Source of the DNA: Clostridiales bacterium
GTDB taxonomy: Bacteria > Bacillota > Clostridia > Caldicoprobacterales > DTU083
NCBI GenBank assembly: GCA_012838915.1
Contig: DUOI01000048.1
Span: forward strand, 1-43,967
DNA: 43,967 nt
Direction of reading: 5' to 3'
The position numbers were made by a program, and so were the translations under genes. Below, one piece after another: positions 16,999 to 27,634 of this stretch; position 1 is the stretch's first letter, and every line of letters starts with the position of its first letter. Below the pieces are notes generated by a model. That model was not told where the DNA came from. It was given only the letters and a program-made list of their open reading frames with translations, and searched no databases.

Positions 16999-17024
16999 GG
17001 AACCGAGCCTCAGTGCTCAGTTCC
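16999..17024 (-). terminator. Hairpin at the end of the glucan synthase gene
   Basis: Minus strand GGAACTGAGC, 6-base loop, GCTCGGTTCC (17015-17024 with 16999-17008), a 10-bp stem with one T-G pair that includes the stop codon. The tail TTCCTTC is only weakly T-rich, so termination may be partial. Confidence 0.4.
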
Positions 17025-20000
17025 CATGGTAACTACAATGTGGTGGGGTTTCCCATCATCTGTCAAAGGAATGAATGATGCATCCAATTGCCGGCCGTCC
17101 AAAATAATGCTCTTTACACCTTGCTGTACCTTTTGAGGATTTTTAACCTCTATTCTATATTTGGAGTCCCCATAACGATATGTTATTTCAAACCCGGGCC
17201 AATCATCCGGGATACAGGGATTGATTATCAGATTGCTTCCCTTCTTATTGAAACCAAGTATTTCACTCATGCCAACCCGATACATCCAACTTGCGGAGCC
17301 GGTATACCATGTCCAGCCTCCGCGCCCTGTATGAGGAGGTATTGCATAAACATCGGCAGCCATTACATAAGGCTCCACTTTATAGGTAGATACATCCAAA
17401 TGAGACTTGGCATGATTTATGGGATTAATCAATTGAAACAGGCTATAGGCTTGATTTCCGTCACCCAATCGGGTATAAGCCATCACCGCCCAAATTGCTG
17501 CATGGGTATATTGACCGCCGTTTTCTCTTACCCCGGGTACATAACCCTTTATATAGCCCGGCTCCAAAGCGGAATGATCAAAGGGAGGTGATAGAAGCTT
17601 TATCAACCCTGCCTCTTCATCAATAAGGTAATGCTTGACAGCACGCATAGCTGCCTCCACTCTTTCTGTTCTTCCACCCCCTGATATGGCTGCCCATGAC
17701 TGGGATATGGAGTCAATGCGGCATTCTTCATTATCCTCCGAACCAAGAGGAGTACCGTCATCAAAGAATGCACGTCGATACCATCCTCCGTCCCAGGCGT
17801 GCTTTTCAATGGAAATCAACAACTCAGCGGCCGCACCTTGATAACGGCTAGCACGTTCCATGTCATCTCTGGCTTTACAAATTGGTATGAAACTATTGAG
17901 AACAGTATACAAGAACCAGCCAAGCCAGACACTTTCGCCCTTTCCCTTGATTCCAACCTTGTCCATTCCATCATTCCAATCTCCACCACCCATGAGGGGT
18001 AATCCGTGACTTCCAAGCCTCATTGCTCTTTCGATAGCGCGTATGCAATGATCATAAATACTTGTCTTTACTTCAGATACCTGTGGAATTGAATATCTGT
18101 CATGTTCATCGGGTTGAAGGGGTTCGTCTTCAAGAAAGGCCACCAACTCGTCCAGAATACCCCAATCCGCTGTTTTCTCGATATAATCTGCGGTGACAAA
18201 AGGCAGAAATAATAAGTCGTCAGTGATTCGGGTCCGTACTCCTCTGAAGGGCGGATGCCACCAATGCTGTACATCGCCTTCAAGGAATTGATGTTCAGCG
18301 GATAAAAGAATCTGTTCCCTCATTAATTTCGGTTCACAATAAACAAGAGCCAACACATCCTGCAACTGATCCCGAAAGCCGTATGCACCTCCGGCCTGAT
18401 AAAATCCGGTCCTCGCCATCAACCGGGCGGAATAGGTCTGATAAATCAGCCATCTGTTAAGCATCAAATCCATAGAAGTATCCGGGGTGGAAACCTTAAG
18501 AACGCCCAGCCTGTCATCCCAGAACTTCTTAACTTCCTTTAGCGCAAGTTCTGCCCGCTCAGTTGAATTATAGGTGTTAATCAGCTGTCTTACACGTTCC
18601 GGGCTCTCTTCCTGACCAAGCAGAAATATAAGCTCCTTGCTTTCCCCAGGATCAAGATTTAATTGTATCTGTATAGCGGAACAAGGATCATGCCATACTC
18701 CTGCCCGATTGGAAAGACACTTTGTCTTCATTGCCTGTGGAAAATCCATTGAACCATTTATACCCAAAAATTCACTTCGAAGGGAAGTATAGGAATGAAT
18801 AGGCAGATTACAGGAAAGAAAAGCTGTTCTGCAAGCAAATTCCTCATTATAGCGGTTATATGCCAGCATACAGCTGTTTTCAGCAATATAATCAGTAATT
18901 ATAAATCGAGCATTTTCTCCCCTGTTAACACCCAGTACCCACTCTACATAGAAAAACAGGGATAGATTTCTTGGTTGATCCGTTTTGTTTTCCAGTGATA
19001 CCCTTACAATCTTGATCGGAGCCTGCACGGGTACAAACATGGTTTGTGTTGATTTTATCCCATAATAGAAACTCTCAAATACGGAATATCCCTGGCCGTG
19101 ACGGATCAGATATGCAGCATTGGTTCTAACGGGCAATGCCGTTGTTGTCCAATATTCTCCTGTCATATCATCACGTATATATATAGCTTCCCCAGCCGGA
19201 TCCCGGATCGGGTCATTGGACCAGGGGGTCAGTTTGTTCTCACGGCTGTTCTTATACCAGGTATAACCTGAGCCGGATTCCGTCACCAGAAATCCAAAAT
19301 CCCTGTTGGCTATAATATTGCTCCAGGGAAGAGGTGTGCTTTCCCCCTTTTTCAAATAAATAATATATTCCTTGCCATCCTGTGAAAATCCCCCCAGATT
19401 ATTCTGATAAACCAAATCATTAGGAGGAATAACGGCTTGCTCTCCATCGATATGATATTCAATTTTTCTGGTTTCCAGAGACAGGGCCTTATAAGGCTTG
19501 TATTCCACATTCAATTGGTCGGCAATGCAACCCTTTTCCGCATTTAAAACAAGTCTGGCTGCTGCAAATATCAGATTCAAATCATCCTGAGCTATATTCG
19601 TGCTTTGCAGGATATATACACCACCCGGTTTGCCAGACAGATCTCGGGCATGGCTGACTGCGACCAGCTCCTGTAATCTTTCCTGTACCGGCTGCTCATA
19701 ACTGCTGCCGAATTCATTCAGCAAAATCAAATCCATCCACAAGCACTTCAATCTGAAGTATTCATGGGCAGTAAGCATTTGCTTCACCGTTTCCATATGT
19801 CCCATATTTCCTATCCGTAGAACTACAATGGGCAAATCACCGGATACTCCATATGCCCAAAGAGCAGTCTGACCCTTGCTGTTCACTTTAATTATTTCCC
19901 TTTTCCATTCTTCCGGCGGCCGCACAAACAGGATTTGAGATGCCATGACCTGAAAAAGGCTGGCCTGGCCCGCTGTAATATTTAAGTACCTCAATTCCAC

Positions 20001-23000
20001 CTGGGAATGAGTCCATGCCAGCTCCTGGGCACGATAGGGCATATTGCTGCCCTGATGTTCTCTGGCCAGAGAAATAGCTGATTCCCTTGAATCTGCCACA
20101 CCTGTTATATATGAAACCTGTACTGTTTCACCGGCGGGTATAAAGACCCTTATTCGCATGCTGACAATCGGATCCAGAACAGCACCCGCAGTATTGGACA
20201 GAGGAAATTCAGGATCCATTACCTGAGGATTTTTAAGACTTCTGTGCCTGCCAATAAATTTGGCACGATCTGTTTCATATTGAATATTTCCGACTGCCTC
20301 ACCATCCGTTGTCAAGGTATGAAACAACCACAATCGCTTCTGCTTGTTGTCTCTTGGCCTGCGGTTCACTAGAATTATATTTCTTTCTGACAGGTATTCG
20401 GTGCGCACAAACAGATTTGTGAAAGCCGGATGATCCAATTCTGAAGTGTGTGGATACAACACAACTTCAAAGTAACTGGTTACTTCCATCATTCTCCCGC
20501 TGCCGCTGTGATTGGTTAATGAAATACTTCTTACCTCTCCGTTAAATTCCGGGGAAACTACTACCTCCATCCTGGTTTCAATGTTTCCGTCCTTCCGGCT
20601 GTATACAACCTGATCAGGCTGAAATATAACCCTGTAATCCTTTGGTTTAGTACAGACCGGCTGATAAGCAGCCGACCAATAATTATTGGAATTAAGGTTA
20701 GCGATATAAAACATCATCCCCCAATCATCACGGATTGGATCTTCCCGCCATCTGGTAACAGCCTGTTCCATATATTTACTGTATCCTCCGCCTTTACTGG
20801 TGAGCATGACACTATAGCTCCCGTTGGACAGAAGATTGGTTTCAGGAATAATGGAATCCGGTGAAGTAAATGTTCGTTTGGCCTGAACTTCCTGATGCTG
20901 TCTGCCTTCCTCCAAATCACGATGGTATACAATACTATCATGTTCCTTGATAACAATCTCTCGCCTGGGTATTCTCTCCTGTAACAGCAATTCTGTTGCT
21001 TTTATCATTGGTACAGAATGAAAACGGGTCTGCATGATATTATTATTCAGATAGTTGTTGATCGCGGTTAAAATCATGCCCTGATGATGTGCCATAAAGC
21101 TTTTCACAATCATACTTTTCTTCTTCTTAGGCAGACGTTCCGCTGTATAGTCCACTGCTTCAAAAAACCCATAGCTACCGATCAGTCCTTCAGCCTCCAA
21201 TGCCACCATGTTTTTGTAGGCTGTTAACGGCTGGATGGGTAGTGCAAGAACCGTAGCATATGGAGCCACAACGAAATCGTTTACCAAACCCCGCTTTAGT
21301 CCAAGTTTCGGGACTCCAAAAGCCTTATATTGATAGTTTAAATGGAGATCAAAGGCATAAAATCCGGATTCTGAATTGCCCCATGGGAGGCGATGCTGCT
21401 CACCATGCTGCTTCTGAGCCAGTACTACTGCTGCATAGGTCTCATCCAAAAGAGTGTTGTCATAATTTTTCATGATCAACAACGGCATGAGGTACTCAAA
21501 CATGGTGCCGCTCCAAGAAGTCAATACCCGTCTGTCACCTATCAGTGACAGAGCCCTGCCCAGCTTGAACCAATGCTTTTGAGGAATATCCCCTTTTGCT
21601 ATGGCTATAAAGCTGGCTTGTCTGGCTTCTGATGCCAGCAGATCATAATATGCTTTGCTAAGTTTATCTTCCTCAACGTTCATTCCGATGGCAAACAATT
21701 CTTTCTTGTCATCATATAGGAGCTTGAAATCCATTGCATTGATCAGCAGATTAATATCATCCTGCAACCTATGGCAGCGGATAATGAAATCCTTTACTGC
21801 TGAATAGGATTTTCCAAGGGAAATTTCCAATTGTTTTAACCAGCTCCTGGCTTCAAAAAAACCAGGAGAACGGTTAGCATCTCTGGTCAGAGATGACATG
21901 GTTTCAGATAAACTTCTTAATATCTCCAGGTAGTAATCATATAGATGTTGGATGGACAAGGAATCATTAAGCTTATTTAATAATTCTGCCAGCTTCCGGG
22001 ATGCACTTTTATACACTCCCTTCTCATTCAAAAGGGTTGTGGGTATCTTTTGCAGCTGCTCAACCCATGGAATAAAAAGTGATATCTCCCTTTCATATTC
22101 TGATATTATATGATCCAGCTTTTCATCCTGACCTTCCAAATCATCCAGCAGCATCTGCCACTCCGTAATATTGACTTCCTCGCTGCCAAGTAACATATTC
22201 AGCATGCTTTGATGTTCCAAATTTTCATTTCCGAAATTCTCCAGGAGTATGTCTCGCAGACCCAAAATATTCTCTTTTTCAATTAAAGGACGCTTCAACA
22301 GCTCGTCCAGACTTTGCAGCAAGGTTATCAAATAGCCTACCAGGTTTCCGTTATCAACAGTGGAAACATAAAGTGGCTTCATAGGCTCCAGGGTTTCTGT
22401 ATTGTACCAGTTGTAAAAATGTCCGTTCCATTTGTCCAGTTTTTTCATAGTCCGGACAGTATGCTCTATTTTCTCTACTGTGCTTAAGGTGCTAATATAA
22501 CCAAGATCCCTGGCAGACAATACTGACATTAAATGCAGTCCGATATTTGTCGGGGAAGTCCGGTGAGCTATACCTGTTGGCGGCTCCTGTTGATAATTGT
22601 CCGGGGGCAGCCAGTTTTCTTTTTCATTCACCAACTCCTCAAAATATTTCCATGTCTTTCTTGCTATCTGTCGGATTTTAAGGATCTGCCCATCTGAAAG
22701 CATGAGAGTGCGTTTTTCTTTTGGTTTTCCTGTTTTATAGGCAATATAAGGTGATACTGCCCAGGCTGTTGTGATAATAATATTGAGATACCAAGTTTGG
22801 GGGCGCATAATAGCAGCAACCAGGCAAAATACAACTGACAATAAGACAGACTCCTTCATCTTGTGCCAGTAATCCGATAATTCACCGCGAAATCTCCTAT
22901 CCGAATCTGCAGCAGTAACCCACTCTAACATGTTCTTATGGCTGACAGTCACCCTCCAGACGGAGCGAATGACGGCATCTGTCATAAGAAAAGCCTGGTG

Positions 23001-25619
23001 GGCTACAAAAACAAAGGTAAGGGCAATCTGGGTTGCCAATTTCCGTGTGCCTTCGAAAACGGATCTAACAGGTACACCGGAGAGGTTGCTGCTACCGGAT
23101 ACCAGCTTGCCCACTAAATCGGTTACCAGAGGCAGTAATAGAGTAAAGAATGTCAAGCCCAGCCAAAGGCTTATGGATCCGGGCAGAACAATAAAACTCA
23201 ATACTATAACCAGGTACAGTGCGGGTGAAAGCAAGCTGCGTCTCATGTTATCCATAATCTTCCATCTCGCTAAGGCATTAATGGAATTTTCAATCTTTTC
23301 CCCTTTGTAGTTACGAACCCTAGGAAACAACCAGGGCAGCAGCTGCCAGTCTCCCCTCACCCATCTGTGGAGTCGAAGGGAATAACTGATATAATGTGCC
23401 GGATACCCATCTATTAGCTCTATATCGCTTGCCAGGCCTGCTCTTACGTAAGATCCTTCCAAAAGATCATGGCTCAATACAGCATTTTCAGGAATGGCAT
23501 CATTCAGTACTTTATTAAATATCTCAACATCATAAATACCCTTCCCCGTGAAAATACCTTCCCGGAATAAATCCTGATAGACATCGGATACAGCAGTAGT
23601 ATATGGGTCAACCCCTGTCTGTCCTGAAAAGGTCAGCGAGAAAAAAGAACGGCTTGCACTATCTACCGATACCCCAATTCTGGGTTGCAACAACCCGTAG
23701 CCATCCACTACTCTGGTCCCTTCAGCATTCAGTACGGGTTTATTTAACGGATGTGCCATGGCACCGATTAGTTTTTTAGCATTATCCCTGGGCAATTGGG
23801 TATCCGCGTCCAAGGTAATAACATATTTTATTTTATTCAGTATGGATAATTCTCCGATTTGTATGGAGTAACTGGTTTTTCTGCTTCCTGTCAGCAATTC
23901 ATTGAATTCTGTCAGAGCTCCCCTTTTTCTTTCCCAGCCCATCCAGGAACTTTGACTGGCATTCCATTGGCGATGACGGTGAAAGAAAAAGAAAATATCC
24001 TTTCTGCCATAACGCTGATTCAATTCTTCTATCAGCCGCCTGCCTGTATCAATGATTTTCTGATCCTTATCAGTGTGCTCCTCAGGTCCATCCTTGTAGT
24101 CGCCAATAAGGGCAAAATGTATATTATCTTCCTGATTTGCAAGATAAAATACCTCCATTTGTTCAACAAGTTCTATCACCCTTTTTTCATCTGTTAAAAG
24201 AGTGGGAATAACAACCATAGTTCGATATTTTTCGGGAATCCCGTCTTTCAATTCCAGCTTTGGAATATGATGAGGCTTGCAAATTCTGGTAACCACCCAA
24301 TGAACCAAACTGATTGCAATGCTCAGGATTGGCAGGAAGGATAGTACAGCCGCCGGTATCATACTCCAAGCAGCTGTATTTTCAGAAGTATGCCGGATAC
24401 CTGCCAAAAAGGCAAACCATCCGCCAAAGGTCAACAAACCAATGGATCCAAAATACAAAGCTGCATTCCAGTGCACTCCACTGCTTGGAATGCTCTTCCC
24501 CGCTAATTTCTTCTCAAGCAGTGCTCTGCCGCGATCAACAATGTAGTATCCCACATGGCTGAATTTTTCCATGGATTTATCATCATTTTCCCGGGCACAT
24601 TCCAGAGCTTTGACCGCTACCTGAAACTCATCCTTATCATGCTTCAATGCCAGTCTCTCAACTGTGTGACGGTAATGATCCCTGGTAGCAAAATCCATCA
24701 GGGAATAAACTCCGCCTGGATCCTGTCTTAGTATTCGTTCCAGAACACTTAGATCTTCAAACAATTCTTCCCATTTCAAACCGTTAATGGTTCGAAGGCT
24801 GGTAACAGCATTGCCAATGGCACTCTGATTATATGCCTGTTCCTGGTGTGCCTGATGCACAATTTCATCGGCATCGGTATGTAAAACAGCAAGCTTTCCA
24901 TCCACCCATCGGATTATCGGTGCAGTATCCGCATCCTCATCCCTTAAACGACTAAGCAGTCTTTCTACGTAGGCCGGCTTCAAGGATCTGATTTGATTAT
25001 CATGTTCTATAATAGCTTTTCGGAATTCTTCAGAATTGCTGCTGTCTTCCCTGGATTTTTCCAGACTCTTTAAAAGCTTCTCCGCCCAATAATCTGCCTG
25101 CTTGCGCATTGACATGGTATCAGAAATATAAACAGCAATATCTTTAATGCACTCCAAAAGACAGACGCGCAGCATGGTCGGGAGTGTCCACAACTCTCTG
25201 CTGAAAAGCGGCGAGTGATTTTGATAGCCTTCCAAAAACGCAACAATGGCATCCTCATCTATTTTCCCATCTAAAAGCTCTACCAGACCTGCAGCAATCC
25301 CGTAAACCCGGGCATAACCTTTGTGTTTTCCCTTTGATAGAATCGGAAGATTCAGACAGAAATCCTTTTTAATATTGTATAAAATTTCCTTGTACTGTTC
25401 TTCTATGATATAATAGTTATCCAGCAGCCATTCTGCAGCAGGAATAATATTCCCTTTTGATTTTATTTCCTCATTCGTAGATTGATAAGCTTGAATTAAT
25501 GCTTGTTTATTTTCCTCCAGCTTGGGAAGTTTAGGTCGTACCTTTCTGCCGGAAACGACTGTTTGGTGCTCGGCAGCCATTTCCTCTGCAAGCGACTTCA
25601 ACTGTTCCATATTTGGCAT
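17010..25619 (-). CDS. Cyclic beta-1,2-glucan synthase (GT84-GH189-GH94, giant membrane enzyme)
   Basis: About 2,870 residues (numbered here from the first in-frame ATG at 25646). Order: N-terminal region (1-390); two membrane helices (about 393-417, 426-452); a GT84 glycosyltransferase with the DxD motif DADTQ (613-617), SHDLLEG (725-731) and the HRWVRGDWQ motif (760-768); further membrane helices (about 805-975); a middle (alpha/alpha)6 domain (about 1000-1590; WGNSESGF with Glu1426) matching the cyclising GH189 region; then GH94-type beta-sandwich modules from about 1600 and 2110, and the GH94 catalytic domain with GGDWNDGM (Asp2556). It polymerises UDP-glucose into beta-1,2-glucan, cyclises it and trims chains. 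AAAAGGAG (25632-25639) favours the ATG at 25619 over 25646, although the 12-base spacing is long. Such enzymes are best known from Rhizobium, Agrobacterium and Brucella, with Gram-positive homologues in thermophilic Clostridia. Confidence 0.9.
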   Translation of the reverse strand: MPNMEQLKSLAEEMAAEHQTVVSGRKVRPKLPKLEENKQALIQAYQSTNEEIKSKGNIIPAAEWLLDNYYIIEEQYKEILYNIKKDFCLNLPILSKGKHKGYARVYGIAAGLVELLDGKIDEDAIVAFLEGYQNHSPLFSRELWTLPTMLRVCLLECIKDIAVYISDTMSMRKQADYWAEKLLKSLEKSREDSSNSEEFRKAIIEHDNQIRSLKPAYVERLLSRLRDEDADTAPIIRWVDGKLAVLHTDADEIVHQAHQEQAYNQSAIGNAVTSLRTINGLKWEELFEDLSVLERILRQDPGGVYSLMDFATRDHYRHTVERLALKHDKDEFQVAVKALECARENDDKSMEKFSHVGYYIVDRGRALLEKKLAGKSIPSSGVHWNAALYFGSIGLLTFGGWFAFLAGIRHTSENTAAWSMIPAAVLSFLPILSIAISLVHWVVTRICKPHHIPKLELKDGIPEKYRTMVVIPTLLTDEKRVIELVEQMEVFYLANQEDNIHFALIGDYKDGPEEHTDKDQKIIDTGRRLIEELNQRYGRKDIFFFFHRHRQWNASQSSWMGWERKRGALTEFNELLTGSRKTSYSIQIGELSILNKIKYVITLDADTQLPRDNAKKLIGAMAHPLNKPVLNAEGTRVVDGYGLLQPRIGVSVDSASRSFFSLTFSGQTGVDPYTTAVSDVYQDLFREGIFTGKGIYDVEIFNKVLNDAIPENAVLSHDLLEGSYVRAGLASDIELIDGYPAHYISYSLRLHRWVRGDWQLLPWLFPRVRNYKGEKIENSINALARWKIMDNMRRSLLSPALYLVIVLSFIVLPGSISLWLGLTFFTLLLPLVTDLVGKLVSGSSNLSGVPVRSVFEGTRKLATQIALTFVFVAHQAFLMTDAVIRSVWRVTVSHKNMLEWVTAADSDRRFRGELSDYWHKMKESVLLSVVFCLVAAIMRPQTWYLNIIITTAWAVSPYIAYKTGKPKEKRTLMLSDGQILKIRQIARKTWKYFEELVNEKENWLPPDNYQQEPPTGIAHRTSPTNIGLHLMSVLSARDLGYISTLSTVEKIEHTVRTMKKLDKWNGHFYNWYNTETLEPMKPLYVSTVDNGNLVGYLITLLQSLDELLKRPLIEKENILGLRDILLENFGNENLEHQSMLNMLLGSEEVNITEWQMLLDDLEGQDEKLDHIISEYEREISLFIPWVEQLQKIPTTLLNEKGVYKSASRKLAELLNKLNDSLSIQHLYDYYLEILRSLSETMSSLTRDANRSPGFFEARSWLKQLEISLGKSYSAVKDFIIRCHRLQDDINLLINAMDFKLLYDDKKELFAIGMNVEEDKLSKAYYDLLASEARQASFIAIAKGDIPQKHWFKLGRALSLIGDRRVLTSWSGTMFEYLMPLLIMKNYDNTLLDETYAAVVLAQKQHGEQHRLPWGNSESGFYAFDLHLNYQYKAFGVPKLGLKRGLVNDFVVAPYATVLALPIQPLTAYKNMVALEAEGLIGSYGFFEAVDYTAERLPKKKKSMIVKSFMAHHQGMILTAINNYLNNNIMQTRFHSVPMIKATELLLQERIPRREIVIKEHDSIVYHRDLEEGRQHQEVQAKRTFTSPDSIIPETNLLSNGSYSVMLTSKGGGYSKYMEQAVTRWREDPIRDDWGMMFYIANLNSNNYWSAAYQPVCTKPKDYRVIFQPDQVVYSRKDGNIETRMEVVVSPEFNGEVRSISLTNHSGSGRMMEVTSYFEVVLYPHTSELDHPAFTNLFVRTEYLSERNIILVNRRPRDNKQKRLWLFHTLTTDGEAVGNIQYETDRAKFIGRHRSLKNPQVMDPEFPLSNTAGAVLDPIVSMRIRVFIPAGETVQVSYITGVADSRESAISLAREHQGSNMPYRAQELAWTHSQVELRYLNITAGQASLFQVMASQILFVRPPEEWKREIIKVNSKGQTALWAYGVSGDLPIVVLRIGNMGHMETVKQMLTAHEYFRLKCLWMDLILLNEFGSSYEQPVQERLQELVAVSHARDLSGKPGGVYILQSTNIAQDDLNLIFAAARLVLNAEKGCIADQLNVEYKPYKALSLETRKIEYHIDGEQAVIPPNDLVYQNNLGGFSQDGKEYIIYLKKGESTPLPWSNIIANRDFGFLVTESGSGYTWYKNSRENKLTPWSNDPIRDPAGEAIYIRDDMTGEYWTTTALPVRTNAAYLIRHGQGYSVFESFYYGIKSTQTMFVPVQAPIKIVRVSLENKTDQPRNLSLFFYVEWVLGVNRGENARFIITDYIAENSCMLAYNRYNEEFACRTAFLSCNLPIHSYTSLRSEFLGINGSMDFPQAMKTKCLSNRAGVWHDPCSAIQIQLNLDPGESKELIFLLGQEESPERVRQLINTYNSTERAELALKEVKKFWDDRLGVLKVSTPDTSMDLMLNRWLIYQTYSARLMARTGFYQAGGAYGFRDQLQDVLALVYCEPKLMREQILLSAEHQFLEGDVQHWWHPPFRGVRTRITDDLLFLPFVTADYIEKTADWGILDELVAFLEDEPLQPDEHDRYSIPQVSEVKTSIYDHCIRAIERAMRLGSHGLPLMGGGDWNDGMDKVGIKGKGESVWLGWFLYTVLNSFIPICKARDDMERASRYQGAAAELLISIEKHAWDGGWYRRAFFDDGTPLGSEDNEECRIDSISQSWAAISGGGRTERVEAAMRAVKHYLIDEEAGLIKLLSPPFDHSALEPGYIKGYVPGVRENGGQYTHAAIWAVMAYTRLGDGNQAYSLFQLINPINHAKSHLDVSTYKVEPYVMAADVYAIPPHTGRGGWTWYTGSASWMYRVGMSEILGFNKKGSNLIINPCIPDDWPGFEITYRYGDSKYRIEVKNPQKVQQGVKSIILDGRQLDASFIPLTDDGKPHHIVVTMGTEH

Positions 25620-25675
25620 ATCCGCAAAATACTCCTTTTCATGCATTTATAAAGGGGCGTGTTTATTCCTGGTTG

Positions 25676-25778: not shown

Positions 25779-26219
25779 CTATTGAAGCATGTTCATGGGT
25801 TGGGATGGCTCGGATATTTCACTCAGTGCCTGGCCGGCCTCGTTATGGAAGATATGCCTCGTTGCAAAATCACCTATGGCGATCATGCCAACTAATGCTT
25901 CATTTTGTACCACAGGTAACCTTCTTATTTTATTTGTTGCCATTGTTTCCAATGCAGTGTTGACATCCATGTCAGGTTGTGCCGTTATTACATTTTTAGT
26001 CATAACATCTTTGACCAGAGTGGTTTTAGGATCTCCGTTACCGGCAAGACTGCGTACCACAATATCCCGGTCAGTCAGAATGCCTGCTACTTTTCCATCA
26101 GGCTGACACACCGGCATACATCCAATATTATGGGTCTGCATTGACTTTGCAGCATCCATAATTGTATTATCCGGTGCCAAAGCCGCTACATTGGTTGTCA
26201 TAATCTCTTTTACCTGCAT
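25779..26219 (-). CDS. Protein of two CBS domains
   Basis: 146 residues made of a tandem CBS pair (Bateman module): repeat 1 MQVKEIMTTNVAALAPDNTI ... GILTDRDIVVRSLA, repeat 2 VKDVMTKNVITAQPDMDVN ... LVGMIAIGDFATR. No other domain is present. Such stand-alone modules bind adenine nucleotides or derivatives and usually act as energy or c-di-AMP-type sensors; the target is not visible. ATG start with AGGAGTG. It is flanked by a strong terminator and, upstream, by the DnaA-box cluster (26367-26452), so its transcription could respond to DnaA, which is inference. Confidence 0.92.
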   Translation of the reverse strand: MQVKEIMTTNVAALAPDNTIMDAAKSMQTHNIGCMPVCQPDGKVAGILTDRDIVVRSLAGNGDPKTTLVKDVMTKNVITAQPDMDVNTALETMATNKIRRLPVVQNEALVGMIAIGDFATRHIFHNEAGQALSEISEPSQPMNMLQ

Positions 26220-26560
26220 GGCAGATTCACTCCTAATATAAAATATGGTTATTTAATATTAGGGTTACCATTGCACACAAAACTATGCTTTTTCACAACC
26301 ATTGTCATATTTTGTATTTTGATATGATATGATGTAAAATCCTGTAACATTTCATTTGTTAGAAAATTATCGACAAGCTTCTATCCACATTATGCACAGA
26401 ATTATCCACAGATTATATGCCGTATTGCATAGGATATCACATGATTTCCACATAATCCAGCATATATTTATGCCCAGTTGCTTTTATCAATAATATGAAT
26501 TTTAATAAAAGGATTCCTTCATTTTATTAATAAACTCACTGCTCTTTCCAGTCAACTTTC
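26220..26560. other. Gene-free AT-rich region holding a DnaA-box cluster
   Basis: 340 bp between the end of tsaD and the start of the CBS gene. It holds the DnaA-box run described separately, AT-rich stretches on the CBS side (26300-26345), and near tsaD a perfect AT-rich inverted repeat TTAATAAAA / TTTTATTAA that could weakly end tsaD transcripts. No open frame of note and no clear promoter hexamers were found. Confidence 0.6.
26367..26452. promoter_or_regulatory. Cluster of DnaA boxes
   Basis: Plus-strand matches to TTATCCACA, all in the same orientation: TTATCGACA (26367-26375, 8/9), CTATCCACA (26381-26389, 8/9), TTATGCACA (26390-26398, 8/9), TTATCCACA (26402-26410, 9/9) and a weaker ATTTCCACA (26444-26452, 7/9). 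Four lie in 44 bp, two of them abutting. No dnaA, dnaN or rpmH is in the window, so this is more likely a DnaA-binding control or titration site than the origin. Confidence 0.7.
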
Positions 26561-27634
26561 TCATTCTCTATCACCGGTAAGCGACAAATACGGTACAGCG
26601 TTGAGAGACAGTGGAGATACTTTCCCCTGCAGCAAACGATAGTAACCCGCGCTTGCTATCATCGCAGCATTGTCGGTACATAAAACCGGTGAAGGGTAAT
26701 AAAGCTGTATATCAAATTTAGCAGCTTCTTCCTCCATATGCTTTTTAAGAGATGAATTGGCAGCAACACCTCCGGCCATGGCAATTCGCTTTTGATTCAG
26801 CATGCGGGCACAATTAATTGTTTTTTCTACCAAAACATCTATTACCGCCTGTTGAAAGCTGGCTGCCACATCCGCTGTAGAATAGGATTCGCCCTTTTGT
26901 TCCAGGTTATGAAGATAGTTAATAACAGCCGTTTTCAAACCGCTGAAACTGAAATCATAAGGCTTGTCCTTTAATTTCACTCTGGGGAAGGAAACAGCGT
27001 TGGGATTGCCCTGTGTGGCAGTACGTTCCACCGCGGGACCTCCGGGGTAACCAAGCCCGAGGACTCGTGCCACTTTGTCAAATGCCTCCCCAGCAGCATC
27101 ATCCATGGTCTGTCCGAATAATTCATAGCGTCCGTAATCACTTACATGTATAATCTGGGTATGACCTCCTGATACGATGAGGCAGACAAAGGGGGGTTCC
27201 AGCCCACTATGCTGGATATAATTGGCGCTGATATGACCTTCAATATGATGCACTCCAATCAAGGGAACAGACAGGCCGAAAGCCAGGCCTTTGGCCACAG
27301 AAACCCCTACCAGCAATGCACCTACCAAGCCGGGGCCATATGTTACGGCTATTGCATCCAGCCTGTCCTTGGTAATATCAGCTTCCTCCAGTGCACGCCG
27401 AATTACTTCATTAACTGCCTCTACATGCTTTCTGGATGCTATCTCCGGAACCACTCCGCCATATATTTGATGCGTTTCTATTTGAGATGCGATGATATTA
27501 CTCTTCACTTCCCTTCCGTTTTTTACAACAGCAGCTGAAGTCTCATCACAGGAGCTTTCCAAAGCCAGTATATAAATTTCTTCTTTTTCTCTTAATTTTA
27601 TTGCTTTCTCTTTCATTTGTTGAAAATATGACAT
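26561..27634 (-). CDS. tsaD: tRNA N6-adenosine threonylcarbamoyltransferase TsaD
   Basis: 357 residues. ASKA-fold protein of the Kae1/TsaD family: [15 protein letters not shown] near the N-terminus, the metal-binding [40 protein letters not shown], and [13 protein letters not shown] with [10 protein letters not shown]. With TsaB and TsaE it transfers the threonylcarbamoyl group to A37 of ANN-decoding tRNAs. About 18 residues precede the family's usual start, and an internal Met (residue 7) exists, but AAAAGGAG supports the ATG used. It is the last gene of the t6A cluster, 26 bp after the DUF1461 gene. Historically named gcp. Confidence 0.97.

Follow-up and report, generated by a model that had tools for sequence, protein, structure and literature searches.

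A DnaA-box cluster downstream of tsaD in a Clostridiales genome, with apparent conservation across the phylum

A cluster of DnaA boxes behind tsaD

What does a cluster of binding sites for DnaA, the initiator protein of chromosome replication, do at the end of tsaD (gcp), a gene with no replication gene beside it? The question is raised by an intergenic region of 341 bp (26220 to 26560) in a 43,967 nt stretch of DNA from a Clostridiales bacterium, which was analysed as a whole and is referred to here as the window. The region lies between tsaD (26561 to 27634, minus strand; Pfam TsaD, 4e-103) and a gene encoding a CBS-domain protein (25779 to 26219, minus strand; Pfam CBS, 1e-30). The non-oriC DnaA clusters of Gram-positive bacteria have been studied mainly in Bacillus subtilis, and their importance for replication is disputed. 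Okumura et al. 2012 reportedly counted the cluster between gcp and ydiF as one of six non-oriC clusters in that species. Two genes from tsaD, at 17010 to 25646, the window also encodes a GH94-type protein of 2878 aa that carries glycoamylase, GH94 supersandwich and catalytic domains and resembles cyclic glucan synthases.

As the original prediction had described, four boxes lie on the plus strand within 44 bp (26367 to 26410), one of them perfect, three with a single mismatch, and two abutting. The perfect box C (TTATCCACA, 26402 to 26410) is a column-conserved island in ten genomes of the window's family, f1. Box D (TTATGCACA, 26390 to 26398, one mismatch) starts 12 bp from box C, leaving a 3-bp gap, a spacing common to the window and its relatives, and is abutted by box E (CTATCCACA, 26381 to 26389, one mismatch) at 9 bp start to start. 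Box F (TTATCGACA, 26367 to 26375, one mismatch), 14 bp from box E, is less conserved, and its offset was not seen in most relatives. The weaker fifth box that had been suspected nearby is present as box B (ATTTCCACA, 26444 to 26452, plus strand), which has two mismatches and sits exactly 42 bp from box C, as in relatives; its TGTGGA core is conserved in family f1, and in many relatives a better box occupies the position at a spacing of 42–43 bp. A further position, A (TAATCCAGC, 26453 to 26461, plus strand, three mismatches), is predicted by the 9/42/12 template described below; to judge from its letters it is probably a degenerate remnant and unlikely to be a functional box. A DnaA-box cluster has been defined as at least three DnaA boxes with a mean spacing below 100 bp (quoted in PMC7561715), and the four boxes with no more than one mismatch in 44 bp fall within this definition.

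We considered whether the cluster could be an artefact of chance or composition. A+T accounts for 70% of the gap, and single boxes occur fairly often in this genome: pattern searches of the 2.18-Mb draft found 40 perfect boxes, about one per 55 kb (19 for a reversed control pattern), which makes a single perfect box somewhat commoner than the one per 130 kb first estimated. The signal, however, is the clustering of boxes and not the single box. At least four same-strand boxes within 44 bp appeared in none of 20,000 dinucleotide shuffles of the 341-bp gap and in none of 300 dinucleotide shuffles of the whole window, in agreement with the early view that the clustering was unlikely to be random. 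Together with the recurrence of the cluster behind tsaD across the phylum with a common spacing, the shuffles leave a chance origin virtually excluded.

Conservation and geometry across the phylum

To place the locus in context, DNA behind tsaD was collected both from relatives and across a sample of the phylum, with one genome for each of 95 families, and a cluster was called where the 350 bp after tsaD held at least three same-strand boxes in a span of no more than 120 bp. An antisense cluster was found in 38 of the 95 family representatives and a sense cluster in one more (42 of 95 families when all genomes were counted). The sample is balanced across families, but its genomes are not independent in phylogenetic terms and many are drafts. 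For comparison, shuffling the motif 300 times yielded 0.07 families on average and never more than 8. No cluster was called in the control stretches 900–1250 bp downstream of tsaD (0/94) or in the last 350 bp of tsaD itself (0/24). In a separate collection of named Bacillaceae genomes, 13 of 17 genera carried an antisense cluster; in the outgroup Escherichia coli K-12, no box with one mismatch or fewer was present in the 1,031 bp downstream of tsaD. Column identity in the boxes exceeded that elsewhere, both in the ten genomes of family f1 (0.86 vs 0.57), where the boxes, like the core of box B, form islands of conservation, and in the Bacillus group (0.93 vs 0.74).

The main test set for the original prediction was whether homologous regions in related genomes would lack clustered boxes. 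It came out in favour of a conserved neighbourhood, because the relatives, Bacillaceae included, do hold clustered boxes behind tsaD. More than half of the sampled families (53/95) nevertheless had no cluster there, including one of the window's own order (f3), so that the cluster is either dispensable in these families or has moved; it should be noted that the survey was anchored on tsaD, and a cluster moved away from the gene would count as absent. In the papers searched there was no report of this conservation, and a search on DnaA plus tsaD returned nothing relevant. The apparent phylum-wide conservation would be the new part, some of which may already be known, whilst clusters of this type are known.

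The spacing of the boxes is also shared. Start-to-start distances peak at 9, 12, 21, 42–43 and 51–52 bp, and a score was computed for every four-box template with steps of 9–22, 30–59 and 9–22 bp, 5,880 in all. In each of three sets, the 34 families of the window's class, the 61 other families of the phylum and the 17 Bacillaceae genera, the top-ranked template was that of 9, 42 or 43, and 12 bp. At least three of its four boxes were present in 16, 15 and 12 genomes of these sets, respectively, whilst five altered spacings gave none and the mirror order (12/42/9) was found in three, zero and zero genomes. The set of other families includes at least one Bacilli genome (the pattern of L215 equals that of L227) and is not independent of the Bacillaceae set; since this common genome belongs to the window's phylum but not to its class, the sets for the window's class and for Bacillaceae are separate. 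In the window, boxes C, D and E follow each other at 12 and 9 bp and box B occupies its template position, so that the C–D and B–C steps fit, with two mismatches in box B and a degenerate position A.

The original prediction rightly placed a B. subtilis DnaA-box cluster next to gcp: of the DnaA-binding regions of that organism, the gcp/ydiF gap is one of the eight strongest (PMC4447404). Like the B. subtilis cluster, the one in the window occupies the gap 3′ of tsaD, with the same box sequence and with boxes that are mostly antisense to the gene. The Bacillus cluster likewise has spacings of 9 and 43 bp, with boxes at 132, 141 and 184 after the stop codon in B. spizizenii. The two differ in that ydiF is convergent in Bacillus, whereas the next gene here, encoding the CBS-domain protein, is co-directional, and in that the 12/9 side (boxes C, D and E) is strong here and boxes A and B are weak. 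As place, orientation and spacing are alike in two classes, the comparison is most simply explained if the cluster was vertically inherited and is orthologous to the gcp–ydiF cluster.

The origin and other clusters of the same genome

Analysis of the draft genome located dnaA, dnaN, recF and rnpA on a different contig, C11, with boxes of their own, and bore out the expectation that the tsaD locus, lacking a replication gene, is probably not oriC. Beside the cluster are only tsaD, the CBS-domain gene and the GH94-type gene, and no DnaA-trio-like repeat was seen by eye next to the boxes. The two sites are linked by a nearly identical double box (TTATGCACAGGATTATCCACA), although oriC adjoins dnaA, dnaN and rnpA and the tsaD locus adjoins no replication gene. 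With one mismatch allowed, the pair TTATGCACA-GAA-TTATCCACA, 12 bp start to start, occurs three times in the genome: at tsaD, beside dnaA at oriC (C11:7430) and at C93:29753. The tsaD and oriC copies differ by one base in 21. The DnaA protein of this genome retains the GRDHTTVIHA recognition motif.

Elsewhere in the genome, clusters lie near spo0A, behind a murG-type gene, upstream of an amino-acid ABC transporter and close to primosome-type genes. The tsaD cluster thus probably belongs to a set of such sites, as does the gcp cluster in B. subtilis. Those at spo0A and murG recur in relatives, each with its own spacing. The spo0A cluster lies between spo0A and a phosphoglucomutase-type gene (L142:2987-3085; G000:C5:24986-25092) and about half of 27 relatives have it behind spo0A as well, also in family f3, whose sampled genomes carry no tsaD cluster. 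As the interval to spo0A is not constant, the cluster may instead be associated with the following gene; a link between replication and sporulation is possible. The murG-type cluster has boxes in both orientations at a fixed spacing and was found in some ten relatives, from families f1 and f4 (L143:2518-2615; G000:C92:10017-10114). Three tandem boxes with spacings of 12 and 9 bp lie about 160 bp upstream of the transporter operon (L273:967-996; G000:C149). The third double box (L272:3745-3773; G000:C93:29744-29773) is near the end of contig C93, which also carries genes resembling dnaB helicase, helicase loader and dnaD.

In closed genomes the distance of the locus from dnaA ranged from 0.04 to 0.48 of the chromosome, a variation so wide that no fixed timing position is evident; a fixed origin distance of the kind known for datA and DARS was not found. 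Genomes with a cluster in the first 350 bp had a median distance of 0.18 and those without one a median of 0.25 (Mann-Whitney p = 0.09), which is only a trend because the genomes are not independent and two of them (G053 and G110), counted as lacking a cluster, have clusters just beyond 350 bp. tsaD is co-directional with the replication fork in 27 of 28 closed genomes. A fixed orientation to the fork was rejected as the conserved property, as tsaD of G096 is head-on and the boxes there keep their orientation to tsaD.

A candidate platform and buffer for DnaA

We propose that the tsaD cluster is an inherited non-oriC site that would bind DnaA cooperatively and buffer the initiator, a reading to which we assign a probability of roughly 0.7 and which, for binding and buffering in this organism, draws on the B. 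subtilis work. There, the gcp/ydiF region, with 10 sites, stands fourth among the tabulated binding regions. It binds DnaA with a Kd of 0.15 µM with ATP and 0.33 µM with ADP, and shows a 16-fold ATP preference at 55 nM; only the eight strongest in vitro regions, gcp/ydiF included, were readily detected in vivo (PMC4447404). Deletion of all six non-oriC clusters leads to early initiation, which is partially relieved when one is restored (reviewed in PMC5295017 and PMC13220808). One of these reviews judged the role of the clusters in initiation not significant (PMC5295017), and approximately 10-fold overproduction of DnaA caused no over-initiation (PMC13220808). Box pairs separated by 2–3 bp are favoured by E. 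coli DnaA in vivo (PMC11317965), and boxes C and D, with their 3-bp gap, have this arrangement. In the proposed mechanism, same-orientation boxes 0 and 3 bp apart and a further box 42–43 bp away, about four helical turns, would provide a platform for the cooperative assembly of DnaA, probably mainly in its ATP form. The resulting complex would take up free initiator and, acting together with the other clusters of the genome, may help to delay or buffer the firing of oriC.

The original prediction had spoken of a DnaA-titration or regulatory site, possibly controlling the CBS-domain gene. Titration is, in our analysis, the best reading; regulation of the CBS-domain gene found no support. The start of that gene lies approximately 150 bp from the nearest box, many genomes of the window's order have a CBS-type gene after the cluster, and one promoter-like match on the minus strand falls at 26440 to 26412; the scanned stretch holds four such matches against 3.1 expected. 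The cluster is nevertheless attached to the 3′ end of tsaD across the phylum and not to its other neighbour, which is no conserved partner outside the window's order. Within family f1 itself, genes other than the CBS type follow the cluster in three genomes (G002, G007 and G011); in Bacillaceae the neighbour is the convergent ydiF-type gene, and elsewhere the neighbours appear quite different, resembling by eye lgt, radical SAM, 5-formyltetrahydrofolate cyclo-ligase and nrdG genes. As neighbour and direction change whilst the cluster stays beside tsaD, a promoter element for the following gene, here the CBS-domain gene, is very improbable.

The same attachment raises the question of whether DnaA acts on tsaD, by blocking or terminating transcription or by shielding the 3′ end when bound in a fixed orientation, and so ties t6A tRNA modification to replication status. 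The boxes hold one orientation to tsaD (190 antisense vs 21 sense), even in G096, where the gene runs against the fork, and in many cases the first of them lies no more than about 20 bp from the stop codon. A simple intrinsic terminator was missing from the first 400 bp in 53 of 83 cluster-bearing genomes and from the 341-bp gap of the window, by a scan that was crude. A second non-oriC cluster of B. subtilis lies at ywlC, which encodes the enzyme before TsaD in t6A synthesis. To judge from gene names, several such clusters in that species adjoin RNA-modification genes (gcp/tsaD, ywlC, trmE and yydA), which may be coincidental. A single orientation would, however, also be expected had the whole cluster been inherited once together with tsaD, and gcp is absent from the listed sets of DnaA-regulated genes in B. 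subtilis (PMC8203912). This absence, together with the strong binding and the six-cluster deletion phenotype in B. subtilis, leads us to favour buffering of DnaA and to regard control of tsaD as unlikely. Less probable again is a site that acts on DnaA and is not a passive sink, whether by inactivating it through ATP hydrolysis, like datA, or by reactivating it, like DARS. The fixed geometry across the phylum does suggest a defined nucleoprotein complex over loose boxes, and the B. subtilis site prefers ATP-DnaA (PMC4447404), but B. subtilis lacks IHF, datA and DARS and is not known to have a regulator of DnaA-ATP hydrolysis (PMC5295017, PMC13220808). E. coli datA is likewise a non-oriC array of DnaA boxes and a negative regulator of initiation (PMC5295017); it differs in requiring IHF, in acting by ATP hydrolysis and in having no link to tsaD.

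Beyond the buffering role that we prefer, a more far-reaching proposal, which we advance only tentatively, is that the fixed-geometry module behind tsaD predates the divergence of Bacilli from the window's class. It would have been retained ever since as a defined complex with DnaA, an old counterpart of datA that is possibly active on DnaA or on tsaD expression beyond passive titration. If the cluster and its spacing have been kept behind tsaD in many families, the site would be under selection and its function could be tested in many species, and the common spacing would offer a concrete template for the assembly of DnaA oligomers away from the origin.
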